This document shows positions 6,031 through 28,102 of a stretch of 45,262 nt of DNA, one piece after another. The translations under genes were made by a program, and so were the position numbers. Source of the stretch: Candidatus Poribacteria bacterium (GTDB lineage: Bacteria > Poribacteria > WGA-4E > PCPOR2b); the NCBI GenBank assembly GCA_022822785.1, contig JAJEAL010000067.1, positions 1 to 45,262 on the forward strand. Reading direction: 5' to 3'. Below the pieces are notes generated by a model, which had not been told where the DNA came from, searched no databases, and saw only the letters and a list, made by a program, of their open reading frames with translations. Position 1 is the first letter of the stretch. Every line of letters starts with the position of its first letter.

Positions 6031-7329
6031 ATGGCTAAAATCGCTTTTCTCGGTGCGGGGAGTTTCGGATTCGGTAGACGGTTGATTGGAGACCTCCTTT
6101 CATTTCCAGAACTGACAGATTCAAGCATCCACCTTGTAGACCCCGATAGCGAACGGTTGGCGTTGACGCATACCTATGCCAAACGTATCGTTCGTGAGTT
6201 GGACTTGCCCACGCAGATTGCCGCATCCACAGAACGGAAGTCAGCGCTAGATGGTGCAGATTATGTCATCGTCTCTATTCGGGTGGGCGCGAATATGGAG
6301 CCGGAAGCATCGGATGTCCACATTCCACTTGAGGTGGGTGGACTCCGGCAGACGGTATCGGACACCGTCGGTATCGGTGGGCTGATGAAGGGGTTACGCA
6401 CGATTCCCGCCATGCTCGACATCGCCCACGATATGGAGGTGCTCTGCCCGGACGCACCGATGCTCAATTACACCAACCCGATGGCGATGATCATGTGGGC
6501 GGTGTTGGAGGCAACGAGTATCTCCGGCGTGGGGCTTTGCCACAGTGTGCAAGGCACCAGCAAGCAACTAGCAAACTACATGGGCGTGGATTACGATAAC
6601 CTCCGCTATCTTGTCGCGGGAATTAATCATATGGCGTGGTTTTTGGAGCTTTCGCAAGATGGTGAAACGCTCTATCCTCGCTTGAACGCCTGCCTTGAAG
6701 ATCCTGAGATTGTCGCCCGTGATCCGGTGCGCTTTGAAATCCTGAAGTATTTCGGTCGATTTGTCACGGAGTCCTCTCGCCACATGGCAGAATATGTGCC
6801 CTACTTCATGCAACACCGCGACGAAATGGATCGGATGAATATCGAACACCGTACCGCCGAAGGTTTCATCGACCAAAACAGAGACAGGGAAGATCGGATC
6901 GCACAGGCAAAGCGCGAAGCGGAAACGGCGCCGATTGAACTGAGTCGCTCCCACGAATATGCAGCGGTCATTATCCACGCAATGGAGACAGATACCCCCG
7001 CCTACATTTACGGGAACGTGCTCAACACCAATCTCATCACCAACCTCCCCACCGGCTGTTGCGTCGAAGTGCCTACGCTCGTAAATCGCGCCGGGTTGCA
7101 ACCGTGTTATGTCGGTGAGTTACCGCCCCAATGTGCGGCACTCTGTCAAACCAATATCAATATGCAAGGGTTGACAGTACGAGCTATCTTGGAGGAGAAC
7201 CGTGAATATGCGTATCACGCGGGATTGGTTGACCCAAACACGGTTTCACAATTGACGTTATCAGAGATTCGTACGACGGTCGATCGACTGTTGGATGCAC
7301 AGGACGAATTTATGCCGCCGCTCGCTTAG
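6031..7329 (+). CDS. Glycoside hydrolase family 4, alpha-galactosidase-like
   Basis: 432 residues. An N-terminal Rossmann motif (IAFLGAGSFGFGRRL) shows NAD binding, as in all GH4 enzymes, which act by transient oxidation at C3 with NAD and a divalent metal. The LNYTNPMAM stretch, GLCHSVQG (the Cys-His metal site, CHSV form typical of alpha-galactosidase/MelA relatives) and GINHMAWFLEL are all visible. It should hydrolyse alpha-galactosides or related glycosides in the cytoplasm; the sugar is not fixed by the sequence. AAGGAG precedes the ATG. It heads a plus-strand set with an SMP-30 protein and a TlpA-like protein. Confidence 0.92.
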   Translation: MAKIAFLGAGSFGFGRRLIGDLLSFPELTDSSIHLVDPDSERLALTHTYAKRIVRELDLPTQIAASTERKSALDGADYVIVSIRVGANMEPEASDVHIPLEVGGLRQTVSDTVGIGGLMKGLRTIPAMLDIAHDMEVLCPDAPMLNYTNPMAMIMWAVLEATSISGVGLCHSVQGTSKQLANYMGVDYDNLRYLVAGINHMAWFLELSQDGETLYPRLNACLEDPEIVARDPVRFEILKYFGRFVTESSRHMAEYVPYFMQHRDEMDRMNIEHRTAEGFIDQNRDREDRIAQAKREAETAPIELSRSHEYAAVIIHAMETDTPAYIYGNVLNTNLITNLPTGCCVEVPTLVNRAGLQPCYVGELPPQCAALCQTNINMQGLTVRAILEENREYAYHAGLVDPNTVSQLTLSEIRTTVDRLLDAQDEFMPPLA

Positions 7330-7413
7330 TAAAACGTAAGTCGGCAGCCATCGTGCCACGGGGACTATGATGATTCATTAGTTCTCTAAAATTAGGAAAG
7401 GGAATTTGTCAGA

Positions 7414-8247
7414 ATGATCGAGGAACTTTTTATCAGTCATGTTTTCACGGAGCAGGACGGTTTTACCTCCGGCATTGAAGGTCCCGCCTGCGACGCCGAT
7501 GGCAATTTATACGCTGTCAATTACGCGCGTCAGCACACAATCGGGAAGGTTACCCCGGCGGGTAAATGTAGCGTATTCGTCGAACTGCCCAACGGTAGTG
7601 TCGGTAACGGCATCCGTTTCGACAGCGCCGGTGCCATGCTTATCGCTGACTATACCAACCACAATATCCTCAAGGTTGATATGGAGACGCGGGATATCAG
7701 CGTCCATGCCCATGAGCCAACCATGAATCAACCAAATGACATCGCCATCGGTTCTAACGATATCGTCTACGCTAGCGATCCGAATTGGGCGGAATCGACG
7801 GGGCAGATCTGGCGCATCGACACAGACGGCACAGTCACGCTGCTTGAGGCGGATATGGGAACGACCAACGGCATCGAAGTCAGCCCCGATGAAGGGGCCC
7901 TCTACATCAATGAAAGCGTGCAGCGTAACATCTGGGCGTACGATCTATCCGCTACCGGAGAGGTGAGTAATAAGCGGTTACTGATTCAGTTTCCCGATTT
8001 TGGGTTTGACGGTATGCGCTGCGATATTGAAGGCAATCTTTACGTGACGCGCCACGGCAAGGGCACGATCGCTAAAGTTTCTCCGCAAGGTGAAGTACTA
8101 CTAGAGGTTGAACTTGCCGGAAAGGACTGCACCAACCTAGCCTTTGGCGGCCCTGATGGACGTACCTGCTATGTCACACTCGCTGACCGAGGCAATGTCG
8201 AGTATTTCCGCACAGATTTGCCGGGTCGAAGTTGGCAGCTTTTTTAG
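7414..8247 (+). CDS. SMP-30/gluconolactonase-like beta-propeller
   Basis: 277 residues made of repeated blades of the type EGPACDADGNLY, GNGIRFDSAGAML, QPNDIAIG, TNGIEVSPDEG and DGMRCDIEGNLYVT. The early Glu, the Asn-Asp pair and the late Asp correspond to the metal ligands of SMP-30/gluconolactonase enzymes. The family hydrolyses sugar lactones; after a GH4 glycosidase this would fit onward oxidation of a released sugar. No signal peptide, so cytoplasmic. AGGAAAGGG upstream of the ATG; 84 bases after the GH4 stop and 9 bases before the next gene, so likely one operon. Confidence 0.85.
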   Translation: MIEELFISHVFTEQDGFTSGIEGPACDADGNLYAVNYARQHTIGKVTPAGKCSVFVELPNGSVGNGIRFDSAGAMLIADYTNHNILKVDMETRDISVHAHEPTMNQPNDIAIGSNDIVYASDPNWAESTGQIWRIDTDGTVTLLEADMGTTNGIEVSPDEGALYINESVQRNIWAYDLSATGEVSNKRLLIQFPDFGFDGMRCDIEGNLYVTRHGKGTIAKVSPQGEVLLEVELAGKDCTNLAFGGPDGRTCYVTLADRGNVEYFRTDLPGRSWQLF

Positions 8248-8256
8248 AGGAGTTAA

Positions 8257-8865
8257 ATGCGTAATCTACGGATAGGCAGCATCCTTCTGTTGATGTTGCT
8301 GATTCTCAATCAAGAACTTATCGCGAAGGAAGGCGACGAGTTAATCGGCAAACCGGCTCCAGAATGGGGGACGCTGGAGTGGTTGAATTCACAACCGCTC
8401 AAGCTAAACGCGTTAGCAGACAAGGTCGCTCTCATCCGGTGGTGGACGGAGACATGTCCATTTTGTGCTGCTAGCGCACCCGCGCTGAACGAATTTCACG
8501 ACACCTTCAAGAATAAGGGTTTGGTCGTGATTGGGATGTACCATCCGAAACCGCCCGGCCCGCGTCGTCAAAAAGCGCTTGAGATGGCGGTGAAGCGGCT
8601 CGGCTTTGAATTCCCGATTGCCTTAGATATGGATTGGAGAATCTTGAGACGTTATTGGTTGACTAAGGGCAAACACCGATGGACCTCGGTCAGCTTTCTC
8701 ATCGATAAGCGAAGAAAGATTCGTTATATCCACCCCGGCGGCGAGTATTACAAAGGGGAGGACGAAACACGGACGGAGGCCCAACGAGATTATCACGAAT
8801 TGAAAGCGATGATTGAGAAACTGATTGCGGAACCGTCTCAATCCAAAGTCAAGTCATCGGATTAG
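8257..8865 (+). CDS. TlpA-like thioredoxin-fold protein, exported
   Basis: 202 residues. Residues 1-23 form a signal peptide (positive MRNLR, then a Leu/Ile-rich core ending near IAKEG). The redoxin domain follows with GKPAPEWGTLEWLN and the active-site WWTETCPFCAASAPALNEF, a CxxC motif of the CPFC type. The expected cis-Pro is not obvious: the segment near residue 145 reads WTSVSFLID, with Thr-Ser where family members have a Pro. The predicted role is thiol-disulfide exchange in the periplasm. GGAG precedes the start, 9 bases after the SMP-30 gene. Confidence 0.85.
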   Translation: MRNLRIGSILLLMLLILNQELIAKEGDELIGKPAPEWGTLEWLNSQPLKLNALADKVALIRWWTETCPFCAASAPALNEFHDTFKNKGLVVIGMYHPKPPGPRRQKALEMAVKRLGFEFPIALDMDWRILRRYWLTKGKHRWTSVSFLIDKRRKIRYIHPGGEYYKGEDETRTEAQRDYHELKAMIEKLIAEPSQSKVKSSD

Positions 8866-8902
8866 TGCACTATCAGATGGAGACTGACCTTCCGTGGACG
8901 GT

Positions 8903-10603
8903 TTACTCCTCCAACGACATCCGGAATATGCCCTCTCCATTTGTGCCAATATAGAACGTCGTGCCATCGTATGCCAGCGACATGATATTGTGCTCTAGCG
9001 GAGCGATTAACTCCCACGAATCCGATCCTTGCGTCAAGCGGAAGATCCCATGAGGGTTTGTCCCATAGAGCGTCATGCCATCGACTAGCTGCATCTCAAT
9101 GCCACTATTGCACAATCCGGTGTCGATTGACGTCCATGTCTCTCCACCATCTATTGAGCGCAAAATCCTATCGTAAGAATCTGCATAAACCGTCCCGCCA
9201 ACGCAAATCAAATCATAGGTAGCCTGTACGAATTGATGCTCCCACTTCGGTAGACCCCGGCTCACATCCGTCCACGTATCCCCTTCGTCAGCCGAACGGA
9301 AGATTTTTCCACGCACCGGGTTGACGTAGACGGTTCTGCCTGACACAGCTAATGGGTGCCAGCCAACGAAAACAAAATCGTGAGATCTGAGCTGTGTCCA
9401 CAGGTTGTCCCCTACTTTCCAGCGGTAAAGTCGTGCTCCATCGCCCATCTGTCCAACAACATAGAAGGTATCCCCGCTAACTATCAATTGATTAACACCG
9501 TAGATTCTGTCATTGGAAGACTGCATATTCGTCTGAATTGGTATCCACGAATTTCCGTCGTCTGCCAAGCAATAAACTCCGGCAGTTGATGGGTTCCATC
9601 TGACGTTAGTTTCGATCGTCGCTGTGTAGAGTTTTCCGTCCGAAACCGTCAGCGTCGCTCCATCGTCGGCAACCAACCCCTCATTCACTGGCACCCACGA
9701 ATTTCCCCCGTCTGCTGATCTAACGATACCATCATCCGTTACGGTATAGAGCGCGTTTCCAAAAAACACAAGGTTTTCAACATAGGCATTGATGATGCCG
9801 GTGTTAGTTTTTGTCCACGATTTCCCACTGTCCGTTGAGCGGAAAACTCCATTTTCGGTACCAACGTAAAGGGTTGTCTCAGATAACACTGTCACGGAAA
9901 GGATGTCTTGATTAGTCAGGTTAGTGTTGTACATCGTCCATGAGCTACCGGCATCGGTTGAGTGAAACACCCGACCATTGGGAGAGTACGAACTGATATA
10001 GAAGATTGTGTTTCCCAACCCCGCCAATTGACCATCAAGATCATGCATCATTCCGTGCTTGATTGATTTCCAGAAATTGCCCATATCCGTTGAACGGAAA
10101 AGCCCCCCATCAGCCGTTGCTGCGTAGAGCAGTTTGCCGGAGACAACAAACCCCGTAGTATCTGATTCGATGACATCTGTTTTCCACGGATCTTTGATAA
10201 TGAGTTTTGTCCATGACTTCTCGCCGGCTTTGAGACGGAAAACGTGACGCCGCATTTGTGCAAAAAGCGTCGTTTCACTCGCAAACAAGCGGGGGCCGTC
10301 TCGATCGGTCAAACCGTTATCAATTTGTTCCCACGACTCACCGTTATCATTTGAAAAGAAAACACTCTCTTGTTCACGCCATCCAATGTAAATCGTGTCA
10401 CCAATGATTGCGACTCCCGAAATGCCCCAATCGCGCTGATAGTGAGTCAACTGCTGCCATGAGTCACCGTTATTGGTCGAATAGAAAAGATCACCATTTG
10501 TCCCGGCGTAGAGGGCGTTTCCTTTTTGTGTGAACGCGGAGACACCGGGAAGTATGTAAAACGTGCTGTCCTGATATCTGCGCAAGCCTTTGCTAGCCGC
10601 CAC
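8903..10603 (-). CDS. BNR/Asp-box beta-propeller, C-terminal part of a frameshifted sigma fusion
   Basis: 566 codons after the first ATG, but the same frame is open and meaningful upstream to about 10711, where it begins LAATPEGTLFAGAGEGG and FRSIDGGETW. At least nine Asp-box motifs of the S-x-D/N-x-G-x-x-W type occur (STNNGDSW, SNDNGESW, STDAGSSW, STDSGKSW, SADGGNSW, SADEGDTW, SIDGGETW), spaced about 45-60 residues, giving one or two beta-propellers. There is no signal peptide or initiation site at 10603. The upstream sigma-factor gene enters this frame if one base is restored near 10691-10698, so this is probably not an independent gene but the extracytoplasmic part of one long protein. Confidence 0.8.
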   Translation of the reverse strand: MAASKGLRRYQDSTFYILPGVSAFTQKGNALYAGTNGDLFYSTNNGDSWQQLTHYQRDWGISGVAIIGDTIYIGWREQESVFFSNDNGESWEQIDNGLTDRDGPRLFASETTLFAQMRRHVFRLKAGEKSWTKLIIKDPWKTDVIESDTTGFVVSGKLLYAATADGGLFRSTDMGNFWKSIKHGMMHDLDGQLAGLGNTIFYISSYSPNGRVFHSTDAGSSWTMYNTNLTNQDILSVTVLSETTLYVGTENGVFRSTDSGKSWTKTNTGIINAYVENLVFFGNALYTVTDDGIVRSADGGNSWVPVNEGLVADDGATLTVSDGKLYTATIETNVRWNPSTAGVYCLADDGNSWIPIQTNMQSSNDRIYGVNQLIVSGDTFYVVGQMGDGARLYRWKVGDNLWTQLRSHDFVFVGWHPLAVSGRTVYVNPVRGKIFRSADEGDTWTDVSRGLPKWEHQFVQATYDLICVGGTVYADSYDRILRSIDGGETWTSIDTGLCNSGIEMQLVDGMTLYGTNPHGIFRLTQGSDSWELIAPLEHNIMSLAYDGTTFYIGTNGEGIFRMSLEE

Positions 10604-21489: not shown

Positions 21490-22788
21490 TCAGTTGTATA
21501 TTTCTGCGACCTGCATTAACATCTCCCCGTCAGAAATTGGGGTCTCCCTACCCGCGATGTATTGCGCTTCTACCCACGCAAAAATCGCATCAACAGCAGG
21601 ATGATCTTCACCCACAGGGGCTTTACCGATCAACTCAAGATACTGTTCAAGCCACCAGTGAACTCCTAACTTCCCGGAGTTTTTGGTCACCACGACATCG
21701 ACCAATTTATGTTCGTCATCATCGACTTCAAATACTGGATCTCTCACGACGCCCATCCCCAACCCCGGAATGCTACGAATCAGCGTTACTAGTGAAAACA
21801 GTTCATCTTCCGGAATAGGATTATCTCGTCCGTTCATATACTGCGCCCTGAGCCATTTCAAAACTGCATCGACGGCAGGATGGTCTTCGCTGATTGGGGC
21901 CTCGCGTCCTACTTGTAGATACAGGTTGATCCAAGCCAATACCTCTGCTCTTCCAGACGCACCATCCAACTTCACACAAGGCAAATCCGCGTGATCTTTG
22001 GTATACCTAGCGAACCCATCGTTTTTCGCAATTGATATGCCTTGGATGACCTCGCTGCCGATTCCAGAGGAAAACACATAAGCAAAAGCCTCCCGTTCAA
22101 AGGGTGGGTATTTGTCTATATCAATTTCACAGCAAAGTACCACTGGCATCTGGCGCCGTTTTGCTGCCCGCCGCATCGCCATACGGTAAGGCAGTTCGGA
22201 TGTTTTGGCAAACCAAACTTTCCCGGTGTTTGGTGGCTGAAATCCCTGCTCCATGATGGCTCTCGCCCGGTCTTCGGTTGTGCCATGCCAGAGCGGAATA
22301 CGTTTCTGGCCCCTACCAATGAAACGCTCAATCCATTCTGGCGCTAAACCGTGGTGATTGGCAAATGCCTTCAACGTTAAATCGGGACAGCTCTCCGTTT
22401 GTCTCTGAAATTCTTTTGCGAGCCATCCAAAATTTAAACTTGTATAGGTTATCCAATCGGAGGCACGGGTTACCCGACGTTTTCGCTTTCTCGTTTTCTG
22501 AGCTAGCTGTCTTCGCCGTTCCCGGATAGGCAGCCATTTCTTCGGTTTTCTCCGCGTTTGCTTCACCATTGTTTCGACGGACGGATTCGTTTCCCCTGCC
22601 CTATCAAGGAAGTTACGGATGAGATTGGGCTGAATACCGTAACTGATAGCAAACGCCTCCAGCGTCAAGTCCGGGTCACGTGCAGATTGTTCTTGGAATT
22701 TCGTCGCCAACCATTGCAGGTCGGAATCCTGAAATCCCCGATGATAGCTGCCATCCGATTTTACATCTCTTTTGCGTCGTCTCACCAA
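21490..22788 (-). CDS. Modular protein: two HTH-like repeats, ART-like WHGTT domain, two C-terminal repeats
   Basis: 432 residues, family not recognised. Order: a basic N-terminus; HTH-like repeat 1 (about 19-63, DLTLEAFAISYGIQPNLIRNF); a Lys/Arg-rich linker (76-107); HTH-like repeat 2 (118-158, DLTLKAFANHHGLAPEWIERF); a central domain (165-255) with LWHGTTEDRARAIMEQGF, GKVWFAKT and PVVLCCEIDI; then two ~65-residue repeats (271-335 and 362-428), each with the core EDHPAVDA...W..AQY..GR..PI. The WHGTT plus G-x-W/Y-F layout is like the ADP-ribosyltransferase fold (PARP-type His and following aromatic), but the usual late Glu is not certain: the candidate region reads AFAYVFSSGIGSEV. The basic linkers suggest nucleic-acid contact (inference). 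The start ATG at 22788 matches the paralogue's N-terminus. Confidence 0.75.
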   Translation of the reverse strand: MVRRRKRDVKSDGSYHRGFQDSDLQWLATKFQEQSARDPDLTLEAFAISYGIQPNLIRNFLDRAGETNPSVETMVKQTRRKPKKWLPIRERRRQLAQKTRKRKRRVTRASDWITYTSLNFGWLAKEFQRQTESCPDLTLKAFANHHGLAPEWIERFIGRGQKRIPLWHGTTEDRARAIMEQGFQPPNTGKVWFAKTSELPYRMAMRRAAKRRQMPVVLCCEIDIDKYPPFEREAFAYVFSSGIGSEVIQGISIAKNDGFARYTKDHADLPCVKLDGASGRAEVLAWINLYLQVGREAPISEDHPAVDAVLKWLRAQYMNGRDNPIPEDELFSLVTLIRSIPGLGMGVVRDPVFEVDDDEHKLVDVVVTKNSGKLGVHWWLEQYLELIGKAPVGEDHPAVDAIFAWVEAQYIAGRETPISDGEMLMQVAEIYN

Positions 22789-22973
22789 CTTTACCCTCTT
22801 TTACTGATGTATACACCGCCGCAAGAACCAATCTATAGATTATTGAATCTGACTAGATCCGCCAATCGGCACCATACATCGAAACTCAATACCCAAGTTT
22901 CGTCTCCTTAGCTGTATGCATAAACGAAAGTTTGTATTTTCTTCCACAACCGTAAAGATATTCTGAATCGTTT

Positions 22974-23807
22974 TCAAGAAACTTCTTTCCCCGCCACGTA
23001 AGCCACATATTTGGGCAATCGAGATAGCAGCGGAGATTGCTCCTCCGGTGCTCGGGTCTCCACCATCTGCTTAATACACAGACCAGTCCCTGCGATTGCG
23101 TTGATAACATCTGCAAGGGAGTGAAAAAATTCAACGATTGGCAGATTTCCATCCCAACCGCCGTATTCATCGGCAATAGGTGTTCCTGTAAAGCTGGAGT
23201 ATTCTGGTGAATTATCGAAATAGTCACGTGTGACAGTAAGCCCACGATCAGTTTCTTTTAGAGATTCTACCACCGGATGGTTGAGCGACAGCAGCAGACG
23301 GCCTCCCGGTTTCAAGATACGATGCCATGCCCGTGCAGCTTGAACTAGGTCTTCCAACCAGCAGACGTAGGTGGCATAAACGATGTCAAACTGATTGTCC
23401 GCGATTGGTGCTAAGATTTGGGCATCGGCAACTTTGAATTCAATACGGGAGCCGATTTTCTCGGCGTTACGCTTCGCCAGTTCAATCGCCACAGGACTGA
23501 AATCACAGGCGACGACTTTGGCCCCCAGATTTTCCCACGAAAAGGCTTGCGCGGCATCACCGGCACAACAGATGTCCAACAGTTTTTTCCCTTTGACATC
23601 GCCAGCCAGTTTAACCTCCACATCATTTAATTCAACACCGCCCTCCGCAAAGAACCGATGGAAATCCGGACGTTTCTTTAACTTAAAGGACGTATAATAT
23701 GGGTGGTACGCGTCCCACGCCTTACGGGACATTTCAAGATGTTCTGTTTTCGTTAAACTTGATTTTGTCTCTTTCATCCCCCTTACGATGCCCTTGAAAA
23801 TCATCAC
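22974..23807 (-). CDS. Class I SAM-dependent methyltransferase
   Basis: 277 residues from ATG 23807; a second in-frame ATG at 23777 would give 267 residues beginning MKETKSSLTK and may be the true start. Motif I is LLDICCAGDAAQAF with Cys-Cys-Ala-Gly replacing the usual Gly-x-Gly, motif II VVACDFSPVAIELAK, then DNQFDIVYATYVCWLEDL and LKPGGRLLLSLNHPV. Substrate unknown. It lies between the DUF5916 gene and the larger WHGTT protein, all on the minus strand. Confidence 0.85.
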   Translation of the reverse strand: MMIFKGIVRGMKETKSSLTKTEHLEMSRKAWDAYHPYYTSFKLKKRPDFHRFFAEGGVELNDVEVKLAGDVKGKKLLDICCAGDAAQAFSWENLGAKVVACDFSPVAIELAKRNAEKIGSRIEFKVADAQILAPIADNQFDIVYATYVCWLEDLVQAARAWHRILKPGGRLLLSLNHPVVESLKETDRGLTVTRDYFDNSPEYSSFTGTPIADEYGGWDGNLPIVEFFHSLADVINAIAGTGLCIKQMVETRAPEEQSPLLSRLPKYVAYVAGKEVS

Positions 23808-23834
23808 GGTGTAATCTATGGCTGATAGTCATTA

Positions 23835-25940
23835 TTAAAATTGACGGAGATCTGGAAAACCAGATTCAAAAAGATATGCGAGTTTCATAAACAGAGCGCG
23901 TTCACCCGGCAAGCTATCAACAAACACAAAGAAGAAGTGACTCTCTGAGGTGAATTCGTAGTCGAAGATTGCGTTGAAATTGTAGATAATCTCATCATGC
24001 AGCCGTTCATCGACACGTTCAACAAAAATGAGCCAACCAATCTTTCGAGTCAATTGATAGTTACTGCGGAGTCGGAAAATCAGTGTATTTTGATACCTAC
24101 GCCAAAAGAAATTCTCAAAGTCTAAGTCAGCGGTCAACTTGCCGAAGAGGTTGACACCCGCAGAAAAGTTGGTGAATCGGTTAAACTTATCTCGGCGTGT
24201 GCCGAACCGATTTCCAACCGCTAAGTGCCACCACGGTGCTTTATACTCAATATCTGAACCGATAAACTTGGTGTCAAAAAGTTGACCGACTTCACGGAGT
24301 ACGCCAAACCCACCGGAGGTGAAGAGGTCAAACCGATCAATGTCAATATTGAAACCGAATTCGCTCTGCCGTTCCCGTAGCAATCTTTGTGCATTGGTTT
24401 GATGGAAATGGCGAGCGTCAATCTGAAATAATTGCACCAAATTCCCCTCCGGAAACTCATAGTTGTACCTCACATGGGCGCGAGCCCGACGGAATGCCTC
24501 ATCTTCAAGTCCCATCTCGTTTGGACGAAAACCGTCCTGAATTTCTTCAAGCCGAACGTTAGCAAGCCACCCTCTGTGCAGCCATTCCATCGCGGTATAA
24601 TACGCCCAATGCGTTTCACCATCAATGAAATCAATCGCATACTGCGATGTTGCAGTCCAGTTTCGATGAAGTCCAAATCGACCGTTGAGCGATAGGAGTC
24701 CTACATTGCGGTCAGCTTGGTGTTTGTGTGTGCCCATCGCGCCGATGACAGTCCGCTCACCGATATTGTAATTCACCCGCCCAGCTAAAAGATTCGCCTG
24801 CTTTTTCTGATCGGCATCATACCGATCAATTATTGTGCCATAGGTATTGACGATTGAGAAATTAGTGCCGCCCATTGTGCCTGCCGTTTTCACACCGAAA
24901 TCAATTTCTTGAACACGACGGGTGTAGAATAGATTGAGTGGTAGATCAAACAACTCGGCACCCTCCCGGAAAAATGGCCGGCGTTCAGGAAGGGATAACT
25001 CGCGGTCACTTGTGATGTTAATTTGGGTTGGATCGCTTTCTAATTGTGAAAAATCGGGATTAAAAGTCAGGTTCGAGGTGAGGCGCGTCGAAATCGGGAG
25101 GATAAGGTCCAACCCACCATCAAGGTTATTAGGACGATTTTCTATCGCACGATAGCTACCGTAGGGGAGAATGCCGAGTTTATGCCCCGTTTTGATATCT
25201 TCTAAATTCAAGCCAGTCAAATTGCCAAACTCGGACACGCGTGAGAAAAAAGCGGTCTGCCCCCAAGAATAGGATTGACTGTTTATCGGGCGTACCCGCC
25301 AAAAGTTGATTCCCCACGTGGTGTTATGCCGATTAAAACGAAGGGCACGAAACGGTATCGCAAATTCTGCGGTCCAACCATCTTGGTACTTATGTATTTT
25401 CGCTTCCCATTGTGCATCCCAACTCATATCAAAAACGCTCTCGTTGCTGACCCGCTCATCTGTCTGTGTACCGAGCGTGTTAACGGCAAAAATATAGCAG
25501 TTACGACGGTCATGATAGGTATCAAGCATCACTTCAATACAGTCATTTTGCCAAACAGGGGAATCCCGACGTGTTTTCGTTTCGCGTAGACTGTTCATGT
25601 CCGGCTCCTCGCAATGCACACCGATATAGAGGGCGTTCTCATCGTACAAAACCTTTGCTTCAGTGTTTAATTGTGCGCGCTGAATGTCTCCCTCCTTTGC
25701 ACGGAAGAAGTTGTTCGCAATTTGGGCGTGTTGCCATACACCGTCGGTAAGTTTGCCATCAATGACCGGGGGGGTATCCACCCATGTGGCATCGATGGTG
25801 CGCGTCGAATTTTGCGTTTCTGCGAAAAGCGGTATAGTTAGCAGTGCAATCAGTGCCCAAAGTATTGCGCGCATCCACCGCAGCCATTCAGTTTCCTCCA
25901 CCGTCTTCGTCCTCCACCTCATTTGTGTCCAAATTTGCAA
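23835..25940 (-). CDS. DUF5916 protein: CBM9-like domain plus outer-membrane barrel
   Basis: 701 residues if started at 25940; the more likely starts are ATG 25922 or 25874, since MRAILWALIALLTIPLFAE (from 25874) is a signal peptide. After cleavage comes a carbohydrate-binding family 9-like domain (PPVIDGKLTDGVWQHAQ, YIGVHCEEPD, NDCIEVMLDT, WTAEFAIPFRALRF, about residues 55-250), then the DUF5916 region with ERRPFFREGAELFDL and many alternating aromatic strands to the C-terminal Phe, as expected of an outer-membrane beta-barrel. The role of the family is unknown; binding or uptake of glycans at the surface is an inference. Confidence 0.85.
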   Translation of the reverse strand: MQIWTQMRWRTKTVEETEWLRWMRAILWALIALLTIPLFAETQNSTRTIDATWVDTPPVIDGKLTDGVWQHAQIANNFFRAKEGDIQRAQLNTEAKVLYDENALYIGVHCEEPDMNSLRETKTRRDSPVWQNDCIEVMLDTYHDRRNCYIFAVNTLGTQTDERVSNESVFDMSWDAQWEAKIHKYQDGWTAEFAIPFRALRFNRHNTTWGINFWRVRPINSQSYSWGQTAFFSRVSEFGNLTGLNLEDIKTGHKLGILPYGSYRAIENRPNNLDGGLDLILPISTRLTSNLTFNPDFSQLESDPTQINITSDRELSLPERRPFFREGAELFDLPLNLFYTRRVQEIDFGVKTAGTMGGTNFSIVNTYGTIIDRYDADQKKQANLLAGRVNYNIGERTVIGAMGTHKHQADRNVGLLSLNGRFGLHRNWTATSQYAIDFIDGETHWAYYTAMEWLHRGWLANVRLEEIQDGFRPNEMGLEDEAFRRARAHVRYNYEFPEGNLVQLFQIDARHFHQTNAQRLLRERQSEFGFNIDIDRFDLFTSGGFGVLREVGQLFDTKFIGSDIEYKAPWWHLAVGNRFGTRRDKFNRFTNFSAGVNLFGKLTADLDFENFFWRRYQNTLIFRLRSNYQLTRKIGWLIFVERVDERLHDEIIYNFNAIFDYEFTSESHFFFVFVDSLPGERALFMKLAYLFESGFPDLRQF

Positions 25941-25983
25941 TTTGTATTTCGGAGCCCGGATTTCCCCACGAAATGGTCATTTA

Positions 25984-26757
25984 TTAAATCTCTCCATTCA
26001 GGTGTGCCTTCACTTGTGCCAATATTTCCTCTTCAGAGATTGCTTCCTCTCGGTCCCCTGCATATTGCGCTTCCACCCATTGATGAATCTTCTCAATTGC
26101 TGGATGGTCCGCGTCTACGGTCGCTTGACCTACCTTCTCCAGATAAGCATTCACCCACAGCAACACGCCATATTTGCCGGAGGTTCTGGTAATGATAATA
26201 TCAACCAATTCGACTTTGTCTTTTTTTCGGAGTGGCTGCTCATCTCCCTTGTCCACTTCCATACCGGATACGCTGGAGATAACCGCCTTGTCAATATAGG
26301 AGTGCTTGAAGGCGTAATGATGCGGACGCGGTTTGTCAAATTCGGAATATTTACCGATATTAATCTGACAACGGAAAACCACCGGCGCCTTCCCACGAGA
26401 TTGCGCTAGGTGAGCCGCCCTCCTGTGAGCTTCGCTTGATTTTTTGGTAAACCAAATTTTCTTCCCTGCTCTCCCGCGTGCCTTGAATCCTTCCGTCATA
26501 ATCGCCCTAGCTCTATCAATTGTTGTGCCGTGCCAGACGGTGATGACGTTCTTAAACTCGGTATTCCAACCTACATTGACAAAACTACGAATCCATTTGG
26601 GCTCAATGCCATAACGAATTGCATATTCCTCCAGCGTTAGGTCGGGGTTTTGTGCAGCCTGTTTGTCAAACTGTTCTGCCAACCAAGCGAGGTCCTTATC
26701 TTCAAATCGTCGCTGATAATGACCTTTTTGCGTCCACTTTTTTCTCTTTTTTCCCAA
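25984..26757 (-). CDS. Shorter paralogue of the WHGTT modular protein
   Basis: 257 residues from a TTG start at 26757, chosen because GGGAGG lies 7 bases before it and the resulting N-terminus (LGKKRKKWTQKGHYQRRF) lines up with that of the 432-residue paralogue; an open frame to 26859 overlaps the preceding gene. Order: one HTH-like repeat (about 18-60, PDLTLEEYAIRYGIEPKWIR), the ART-like domain (72-168, VWHGTTIDRARAIMTEGF, KKIWFTKK, PVVFRCQINIGKY), and one C-terminal repeat (185-249, ADHPAIEKIHQWVEAQY). The late acidic residue of ARTs is again unclear (HHYAFKHSYIDKAV). It follows the Eis-like gene by 13 bases and precedes DUF5916. Confidence 0.75.
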   Translation of the reverse strand: MGKKRKKWTQKGHYQRRFEDKDLAWLAEQFDKQAAQNPDLTLEEYAIRYGIEPKWIRSFVNVGWNTEFKNVITVWHGTTIDRARAIMTEGFKARGRAGKKIWFTKKSSEAHRRAAHLAQSRGKAPVVFRCQINIGKYSEFDKPRPHHYAFKHSYIDKAVISSVSGMEVDKGDEQPLRKKDKVELVDIIITRTSGKYGVLLWVNAYLEKVGQATVDADHPAIEKIHQWVEAQYAGDREEAISEEEILAQVKAHLNGEI

Positions 26758-26770
26758 CGTAAAGCCTCCC

Positions 26771-28102
26771 TCATGACAGACACCAGATATTTCCGGTGAA
26801 CGGTGGGAATAGACAATCGAGCAGGACACCCGCTTCGTCCCGCCCGTCACAGTCGACAAAATTGGATTTCAATTCGTTGAACCGGCGACGACCACACAGG
26901 AGTTGCAAAAAGGTCAAATCTGGGAACCGTGCATCGCCATCTTCGACTGAATCGGGCGACCAGTCAGAGATGTCCGTTATTTTCCCTCCGTTAAATTTCA
27001 GTTGTACACCGCTGCGATAGAAGTTCAGTTTCAATTCACCGTTATAACCTTCTGCGACAGTTCCTACGAGATTATCTTCCAAAGCAGGTTGAATATGCTG
27101 TAAAAAGGCGACCAGATTCGGTATACGGACGTACAACCCGTACGGTCCATACTCATAGATTTTATTCCCCAACAAAGCGTGATAGGCGGGATGTGTGCGT
27201 CCAAGTTCAAGCATAATAGTCCTCAATTCTTGGCTTTTATGATTCCTATATGCAGGTGCCGTTTGTGCGAGTTTCCATAGTTCGTGCAACACGCTCGGCA
27301 TCAGGTTAAGATAGCCCACGCCGGATTTGAGTTCTATCTGAACGATGTACAGTGCGCTGTCCTCTATCCACGGGTAGTATTGTACGTAACCCAATCGTTC
27401 ACGCGCTGCTGTCTCAATGATTAGCCATTTCCTGCGGGCAAAATCGTTTTCCGGGCGTCCACTGAACTCATAGTTCCACTCCGCCTTCGATCGCAGGGAC
27501 ACGAAAGGTTGACGACGACTGGCGTAATCATACACTTCCCGAATGAAAACGTAATCGTCCTCCACAGCTGGACGCAGGCGATATTTTTCGGAATCACTAG
27601 CCTTCAGTTTCGGCAGATGGACGCCAGCTATGGATTTTCCACCATCCACATCCATTGCCATCTCATACCCGAATTGGCGATAGTACCACGGGATGCCGGT
27701 GATGCCCTGCATCAATTCATTCTTTGCCGCGCTCAAGGCATGTATCACCTCAAACTGTTTTCGCACCAACCCACGTCGGCGATATTCCGGTTCCGTGACT
27801 ACCACTTCGGGACGCCCCAGCTTGAACGGAATCCCACGGTATGCCCACGTCTGGGAGATGAGACACATTGACGAGACGATTTTGTTCGCGCGGGTGTCTT
27901 CCACTACCGTAAAATCGTTCGACTTCACCGTTGGGTGACGGCCTGACATCAACCCTCGTATGCCAGCTCCTACTTTCTCATCCTCGAAGACGCGGGCATT
28001 AAACTCAGCAAGGGCATCCACGTCGTCGGGAAGTGCAAAGCGTAAAATTAGATTGTCGCCTAAGTCAATAGGCATTTGAGAGAGAATTGAATTTGTAGAC
28101 AT
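26771..28102 (-). CDS. Eis-like GNAT acetyltransferase with SCP2-type C-terminal domain
   Basis: 443 residues. The N-terminal GNAT domain shows LRFALPDDVDALAEF and VVVTEPEYRRRGLVRKQFEVI, the acetyl-CoA pyrophosphate loop (RRRGL). A second GNAT-like region includes YRLRPAVEDDYVFIREVY. The last 100 residues (LVGTVAEGYNGELKLNFYRS, FPDLTFLQLLCGRRRF) look like the sterol-carrier-type domain of Eis proteins. Eis family members acetylate amines such as aminoglycosides or lysines; the substrate is unknown here. It is immediately upstream of the smaller WHGTT gene and probably cotranscribed. Confidence 0.85.
   Translation of the reverse strand: MSTNSILSQMPIDLGDNLILRFALPDDVDALAEFNARVFEDEKVGAGIRGLMSGRHPTVKSNDFTVVEDTRANKIVSSMCLISQTWAYRGIPFKLGRPEVVVTEPEYRRRGLVRKQFEVIHALSAAKNELMQGITGIPWYYRQFGYEMAMDVDGGKSIAGVHLPKLKASDSEKYRLRPAVEDDYVFIREVYDYASRRQPFVSLRSKAEWNYEFSGRPENDFARRKWLIIETAARERLGYVQYYPWIEDSALYIVQIELKSGVGYLNLMPSVLHELWKLAQTAPAYRNHKSQELRTIMLELGRTHPAYHALLGNKIYEYGPYGLYVRIPNLVAFLQHIQPALEDNLVGTVAEGYNGELKLNFYRSGVQLKFNGGKITDISDWSPDSVEDGDARFPDLTFLQLLCGRRRFNELKSNFVDCDGRDEAGVLLDCLFPPFTGNIWCLS

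Follow-up and report, generated by a model that had tools for sequence, protein, structure and literature searches.

A putative Glu-less ADP-ribosyltransferase family of Poribacteria with HTH-like modules and a synthase-type C-terminal domain

The catalytic glutamate of the ADP-ribosyltransferase (ART) superfamily is normally missing in the RNA 2'-phosphotransferase Tpt1 (KptA) and in mono-ART PARPs such as PARP10. Tpt1 relies on substrate-assisted chemistry, and the same has been proposed for the Glu-less PARPs (PARP10). In the Tpt1 of Clostridium thermocellum, His101 and Thr103 bind the ribose of the NAD+ adenosine, Ile111 stacks on the adenine and the carbonyl of Gly115 binds adenine N6; the residues of an Arg-His-Arg-Arg tetrad are essential in Tpt1 (PMC6333775). 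The tetrad is also essential for RNA-end modification by human TRPT1, and both Tpt1 and PARP10/11/15 modify phosphorylated RNA ends (PMC6582358).

The window analyzed here, a stretch of 45,262 nucleotides, comes from a 5.6 Mb draft genome (147 contigs, 96% complete). The genome belongs to the Poribacteria, a lineage known from sponges. Two of its genes, P0001 and P0002, have three modules in common, in the same order: an N-terminal helix-turn-helix (HTH)-like module, an ART domain with a WHGTT motif and a C-terminal module (CTD). P0001 has two HTH-like modules, the ART domain and two C-terminal units, against one of each in P0002. The first-pass annotation had described this arrangement and placed both genes correctly, without giving the strand, which is the minus strand for both:

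21490..22788, minus strand: P0001, 432 aa, HTH-linker-HTH-ART-CTD-CTD, TTG start at 22788
22600..22746, minus strand: HTH-like module 1 of P0001 (profile match E=5e-26; predicted helices 21-37, 43-50 and 54-63, pLDDT ~90)
22456..22599, minus strand: strongly basic linker of P0001 (RRKPKKW...RERRR...RKRKRR), from the sequence
22315..22455, minus strand: HTH-like module 2 of P0001 (profile match E=1e-23)
22021..22299, minus strand: ART domain of P0001, with H168-G169-T170, I178, G182 and W192-F193 (profile match E=2e-33; Foldseek top match Tpt1 8tfi; conserved columns)
21775..21984, minus strand: C-terminal module of P0001, copy 1, HMGL-type C-terminal domain by profile match
21493..21705, minus strand: C-terminal module of P0001, copy 2, HMGL-type C-terminal domain by profile match
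25984..26757, minus strand: P0002, 257 aa, HTH-ART-CTD, TTG start at 26757, kept in the genus
26569..26715, minus strand: HTH-like module of P0002 (profile match and structure model)
26254..26547, minus strand: ART domain of P0002, with H76-G77-T78, I86, G90 and W102 (profile match E=3e-37; Foldseek top matches Tpt1; conserved columns)
25993..26211, minus strand: C-terminal module of P0002, HMGL-type C-terminal domain by profile match

A longer open reading frame exists for P0002; nevertheless, all six genus members retain the TTG at 26757, which upholds the start assigned earlier, and a Shine-Dalgarno-like GGGAGG lies about 8 bases upstream of it. A similar sequence, AGAGGG, precedes the TTG start of P0001. 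The module repeats were tested by local alignment, each against 2,000 shuffles. Within P0001, the two HTH-like modules aligned with a score of 98 (shuffle maximum 40) and the two C-terminal copies with 146 (51). Between the proteins, the ART domains scored 165 (46), the HTH-like module of P0002 scored 153 (50) against module 1 and 105 (42) against module 2 of P0001, and its C-terminal module 129 (45) and 189 (59) against copies 1 and 2, respectively. All scores are far above the best of the shuffles and bear out the common modules.

Neither protein is claimed by a family in Pfam, NCBIfam, PADLOC or PHROGs, and the last two gave no useful match at all. The earlier statement that no family with this layout is known holds for these four libraries, but not for the C-terminal repeat taken by itself. 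The C-terminal profile matches the region after the catalytic barrel in six HMGL-like proteins (i-E 6e-25 to 8e-16), which are from other Poribacteria plus one gut scaffold; it has no match in the PDB. Against isopropylmalate/homocitrate synthase models, these HMGL-like proteins score below the cut-offs, and we take them, as a guess, to be Re-citrate synthases. Judged by the profile match, the C-terminal repeat is not new: HMGL-like (LeuA/homocitrate-synthase-type) enzymes carry this domain at their C-terminus. The combination of HTH, ART and synthase tail is a new architecture, absent from the family libraries searched, and P0001 and P0002 form a new family within the ART superfamily, related to Tpt1 and the PARPs.

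The WHGTT segment had been likened to ADP-ribosyltransferases from the letters of the sequence, and structure prediction gave it an ART fold, not an unrelated one. AlphaFold models of P0002 and P0001 are of moderate confidence, with a mean pLDDT of 74 (most ART blocks 85-89) and 69, and their pTM values of 0.45 and 0.33, respectively, make the relative placement of the domains unreliable. When searched against the PDB with Foldseek, Tpt1/KptA structures took the top 17 places for P0002 and the top 19 for P0001 (top matches of the two models E=4e-5 and 4e-4), the compact matches having an rmsd of 1.9-2.5 A over 92-95 columns; lower down came PARPs, pertussis toxin, Scabin and DarT1. Sequence profiles agree with the models in placing Tpt1/KptA first and the PARPs next. 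An ART-only profile against the PDB found Tpt1 (E=5e-4), followed by PARP10, and a broad profile matched Tpt1 across the whole C-lobe (E=0.001). In hhalign, the ART compared with ten bacterial and archaeal Tpt1s gave P=1.7e-9 (96%), whereas the C-terminal module, used as a negative control, gave 0.2%. In Pfam, the PARP family PF00644 is a recurring sub-threshold match (best E=7e-4), with P0002 at 19.6 bits and P0001 at 14.1 bits against a cut-off of 26.7 bits. Neither protein has any match to PF01885 (Tpt1/KptA), and one relative matches it over the whole C-lobe at 16.4 bits, below the 26-bit cut-off. That the second module has an ART fold is near certain.

Conservation in 56 Poribacteria ART-profile matches follows the NAD+ site of Tpt1. 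The His of the first ART superfamily motif is present in 95% of them, the Gly and Thr that follow in 98% and 100%, and the downstream Ile and Gly in 98% each, all five in agreement with Tpt1; a Trp is found in 88%. The late-strand Glu of classical ARTs is absent, with H, V, A or I at the aligned position. The first-pass annotation had noted this absence, which is real, and had suggested that the chemistry may differ, which does not follow from it alone: the Glu-less state is normal in Tpt1 and PARP10, so the loss is neither by itself a sign of odd chemistry nor decisive for membership of the superfamily. The Arg-His-Arg-Arg tetrad is absent as well, as the N-lobe that carries three of its four residues is missing and the position of the invariant C-lobe Arg of Tpt1 is occupied by G, T, S or K in the Poribacteria ARTs. 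With the NAD+ residues kept and the N-lobe and C-lobe Arg lost, the domain is a Tpt1/PARP-like NAD+ lobe, yet no Tpt1. Two relatives (L048:116-1300 and L047:6540-7913) have two ARTs each in tandem, an intact one (WHGTT) and one whose His is lost (WYGTT in L048, WLGTT in L047), possibly active/inactive pairs.

For the N-terminal module of about 50 aa, both models predict a long helix followed by a helix-turn-helix, and in P0001 the two copies flank the very basic linker. The module is matched by no entry of Pfam or PHROGs, its profile has no convincing match in the PDB, and in ten genomes of the group it found nothing convincing outside the HTH-ART-CTD family. In the relatives L047 and L048, a MerR/HTH_17-like unit follows module 1 and precedes the ART. 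The HTH reading of the first-pass annotation fits the models and this unit, but has no library match behind it. The N-terminal module may recruit the protein to nucleic acid.

Taken together, we give about an even chance to the reading that these proteins are a new Poribacteria family of mono-ADP-ribosyltransferases, Glu-less and of Tpt1/PARP type, which the N-terminal module would bring to nucleic acid. NAD+ would most likely sit in the ART groove, with its adenosine side held by the His-Gly-Thr, Ile and Gly, and the Trp would, in an alignment made by eye, take the place of the nicotinamide-stacking Tyr of PARPs. ADP-ribose would then pass to an acceptor that stands in for the missing Glu with a phosphate or carboxylate of its own (substrate-assisted). 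The HTH-like module(s) and basic linker would replace the winged-helix RNA lobe of Tpt1 and bring the enzyme to nucleic acid. Since HTH-like modules stand in front of the ART, the likeliest acceptor is probably a nucleic-acid phosphate (DNA or RNA) or a protein bound to the nucleic acid. From the analogy with the synthases, the C-terminal module probably serves dimerization or ligand-dependent (metabolite) regulation.

Part of the same evidence could also be read as a pseudo-enzyme, in which the ART binds NAD+ or ADP-ribose without transfer and, with the HTH, forms an NAD+-sensing transcription regulator. Neither the Glu nor the Tpt1 tetrad is present, HTH-like modules are, and the His-less copies in tandem relatives mean that binding-only copies may exist. 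However, those copies sit in proteins that retain a second, intact ART, the His, Thr, Ile and Gly hardly vary, and no other module is as constrained as the ART; we regard this explanation as unlikely, if worth keeping in mind. A more specific version of the ADP-ribosyltransferase reading, in which the HTH units place the Glu-less ART at defined DNA sites to mark the DNA or a DNA-bound protein, as a regulated signal, possibly metabolite-controlled via the synthase-type C-terminal domain and reversed by the macrodomain protein of the cell, seems to us a distinctly long shot.

The surroundings of the two genes are as follows:

22974..23807, minus strand: class I methyltransferase, upstream of P0001; the methyltransferase and ART pair recurs in G007 (L048), a genome of the same family
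23835..25940, minus strand: CBM9/DUF5916 protein, a syntenic neighbor
26771..28102, minus strand: GNAT acetyltransferase (Acetyltransf_9), ending 13 bases before P0002 and syntenic in the genus

P0002 is kept between the GNAT and CBM9 genes in five of the six genus members and persists after a rearrangement in the sixth; it is probably co-transcribed with the GNAT gene. The methyltransferase gene and P0001 are an insertion in this genome, between the CBM9 gene and a downstream kinase-like gene. Purifying selection acts on P0002: the pooled dN/dS of its orthologs is lowest in the ART (0.11), its most constrained module, and rises through the HTH (0.15) and the CTD (0.16) to 0.48 in the ART-CTD linker. 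A macrodomain, a possible eraser, is encoded in the same genome. No gene for ADP-ribose removal directly adjoins P0001 or P0002; the one exception, a NUDIX gene, lies two genes off and is not close in every case.

Every one of the six genus members encodes HTH-ART-CTD proteins, as do two genomes from related genera of the same family (G007 and G008), where they are in tandem, and one genome of another class (G060). A scan with two peptide patterns (HTH and ART modules) over one genome per species of 84,980 bacterial and archaeal species found relatives in Poribacteria only, and would miss distant versions. The ART profile has some match in 42 of 85 genomes of the phylum, and a true Tpt1 is present in one of 83. 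A sister form with ART, CTD and HEAT repeats is common in the order. In the genome of the window, three tandem genes of this form lie on contig C127 (L010:5675-6784, 7323-8396 and 8540-9586), near a GNAT gene and a NUDIX gene. In G007, the WHGTT ART is also found in proteins that resemble the archaeo-eukaryotic primase/LigD polymerase domain (L064:2894-3856 and L065:1334-3589; weak PDB match of the primase-like part to 2fao, E=0.56), one of them with HEAT repeats. Two further Poribacteria families have an LWHGT ART-like domain (L077, L078, L081 and L079, L080, L082), one with a long helical tail and the other about 290-360 aa long and different in its N-terminal region.

No relative was among the 14 pattern matches in viral contigs, and the HEAT-type ART was not found on plasmids. 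The single weak match to a phage was rejected as a relative, being the C-terminal domain of an HMGL-like enzyme, without an ART, on an unverified faecal scaffold. This faecal "unverified bacteriophage" scaffold (MT835478.1, L119:1172-2719) encodes an HMGL-like synthase and a GntR-type regulator, and looks bacterial, not phage. No paper on Poribacteria ARTs was found in a literature search.

Alternatively, the proteins could be toxins or anti-phage effectors of the DarT or CmdT kind, ADP-ribosylating DNA, RNA or protein. Such a role would fit the tandem, diverging copies in G007 and G008, the related ARTs fused to HEAT repeats and a primase-like protein, and a weak match of the HEAT form to HEAT-ARM in PADLOC. 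P0001 and P0002 themselves have no PADLOC match, and P0002 occupies one conserved chromosomal site with its neighbors in five of six genus members, under purifying selection, with neither an antitoxin nor a macrodomain gene adjoining; with no partner gene and a conserved place, we set this reading low and consider it improbable. An RNA 2'-phosphotransferase, in effect a Tpt1 whose RNA lobe has been exchanged and that strips 2'-phosphates, is conceivable as a substitute in a phylum nearly devoid of Tpt1, the closest known relative; but the loss of the N-lobe took with it three tetrad residues (Arg, His and Arg), the C-lobe Arg is not conserved and these residues are essential in Tpt1 (PMC6333775), so that this activity is very improbable. 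As the tetrad is absent, P0001 and P0002 are probably not 2'-phosphotransferases. A small-molecule ADP-ribosyltransferase like the rifampin-inactivating Arr, likewise a minimal ART, would suit neighbors that resemble small-molecule-modifying enzymes (GNAT, methyltransferase, NUDIX), but has no place for HTH-like modules and basic linkers, is matched by no Arr entry in Pfam or NCBIfam and is highly unlikely.

The proteins described here add a Glu-less family near Tpt1 and the PARPs in a phylum almost without Tpt1 and, if active, would test whether site-directed ADP-ribosylation of nucleic acid or DNA-bound proteins has a regulatory, not a toxic, use in bacteria. Compared with the HMGL-like synthases (isopropylmalate/homocitrate/Re-citrate-synthase type), they have the helical C-terminal domain of about 70 residues (SG..G...W...YL...HP.V..I..WVE.QY..GR...IS..E) but lack the entire catalytic barrel. 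The DNA ADP-ribosyltransferase toxin DarT has the ART fold in common with them (weak Foldseek match to DarT1, E=0.26), but the Poribacteria proteins have no adjoining DarG-like antitoxin, no DarT family match and a conserved chromosomal place. With the PARPs (PF00644, the recurring weak match), especially Glu-less mono-ARTs such as PARP10, they share the HGT motif, an aromatic residue in the nicotinamide strand and, for the PARP10-like subset, the missing Glu, but the domain here is minimal (about 100 residues), below the Pfam cut-off and joined to other partner domains. Tpt1/KptA (PF01885) is the best structural and profile match, with the same Glu-less NAD+ lobe with HGT, Ile and Gly, and the same order of a nucleic-acid-binding lobe (a putative one, HTH-like, here) followed by the ART; P0001 and P0002 differ in lacking the winged-helix lobe and the Arg-His-Arg-Arg tetrad, in having Trp-Phe-Thr for the His-Leu-Ser of Tpt1 and in carrying an extra C-terminal domain. 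To judge by this family, Tpt1 may be one of several unions between an NAD+ lobe and a nucleic-acid-binding module.
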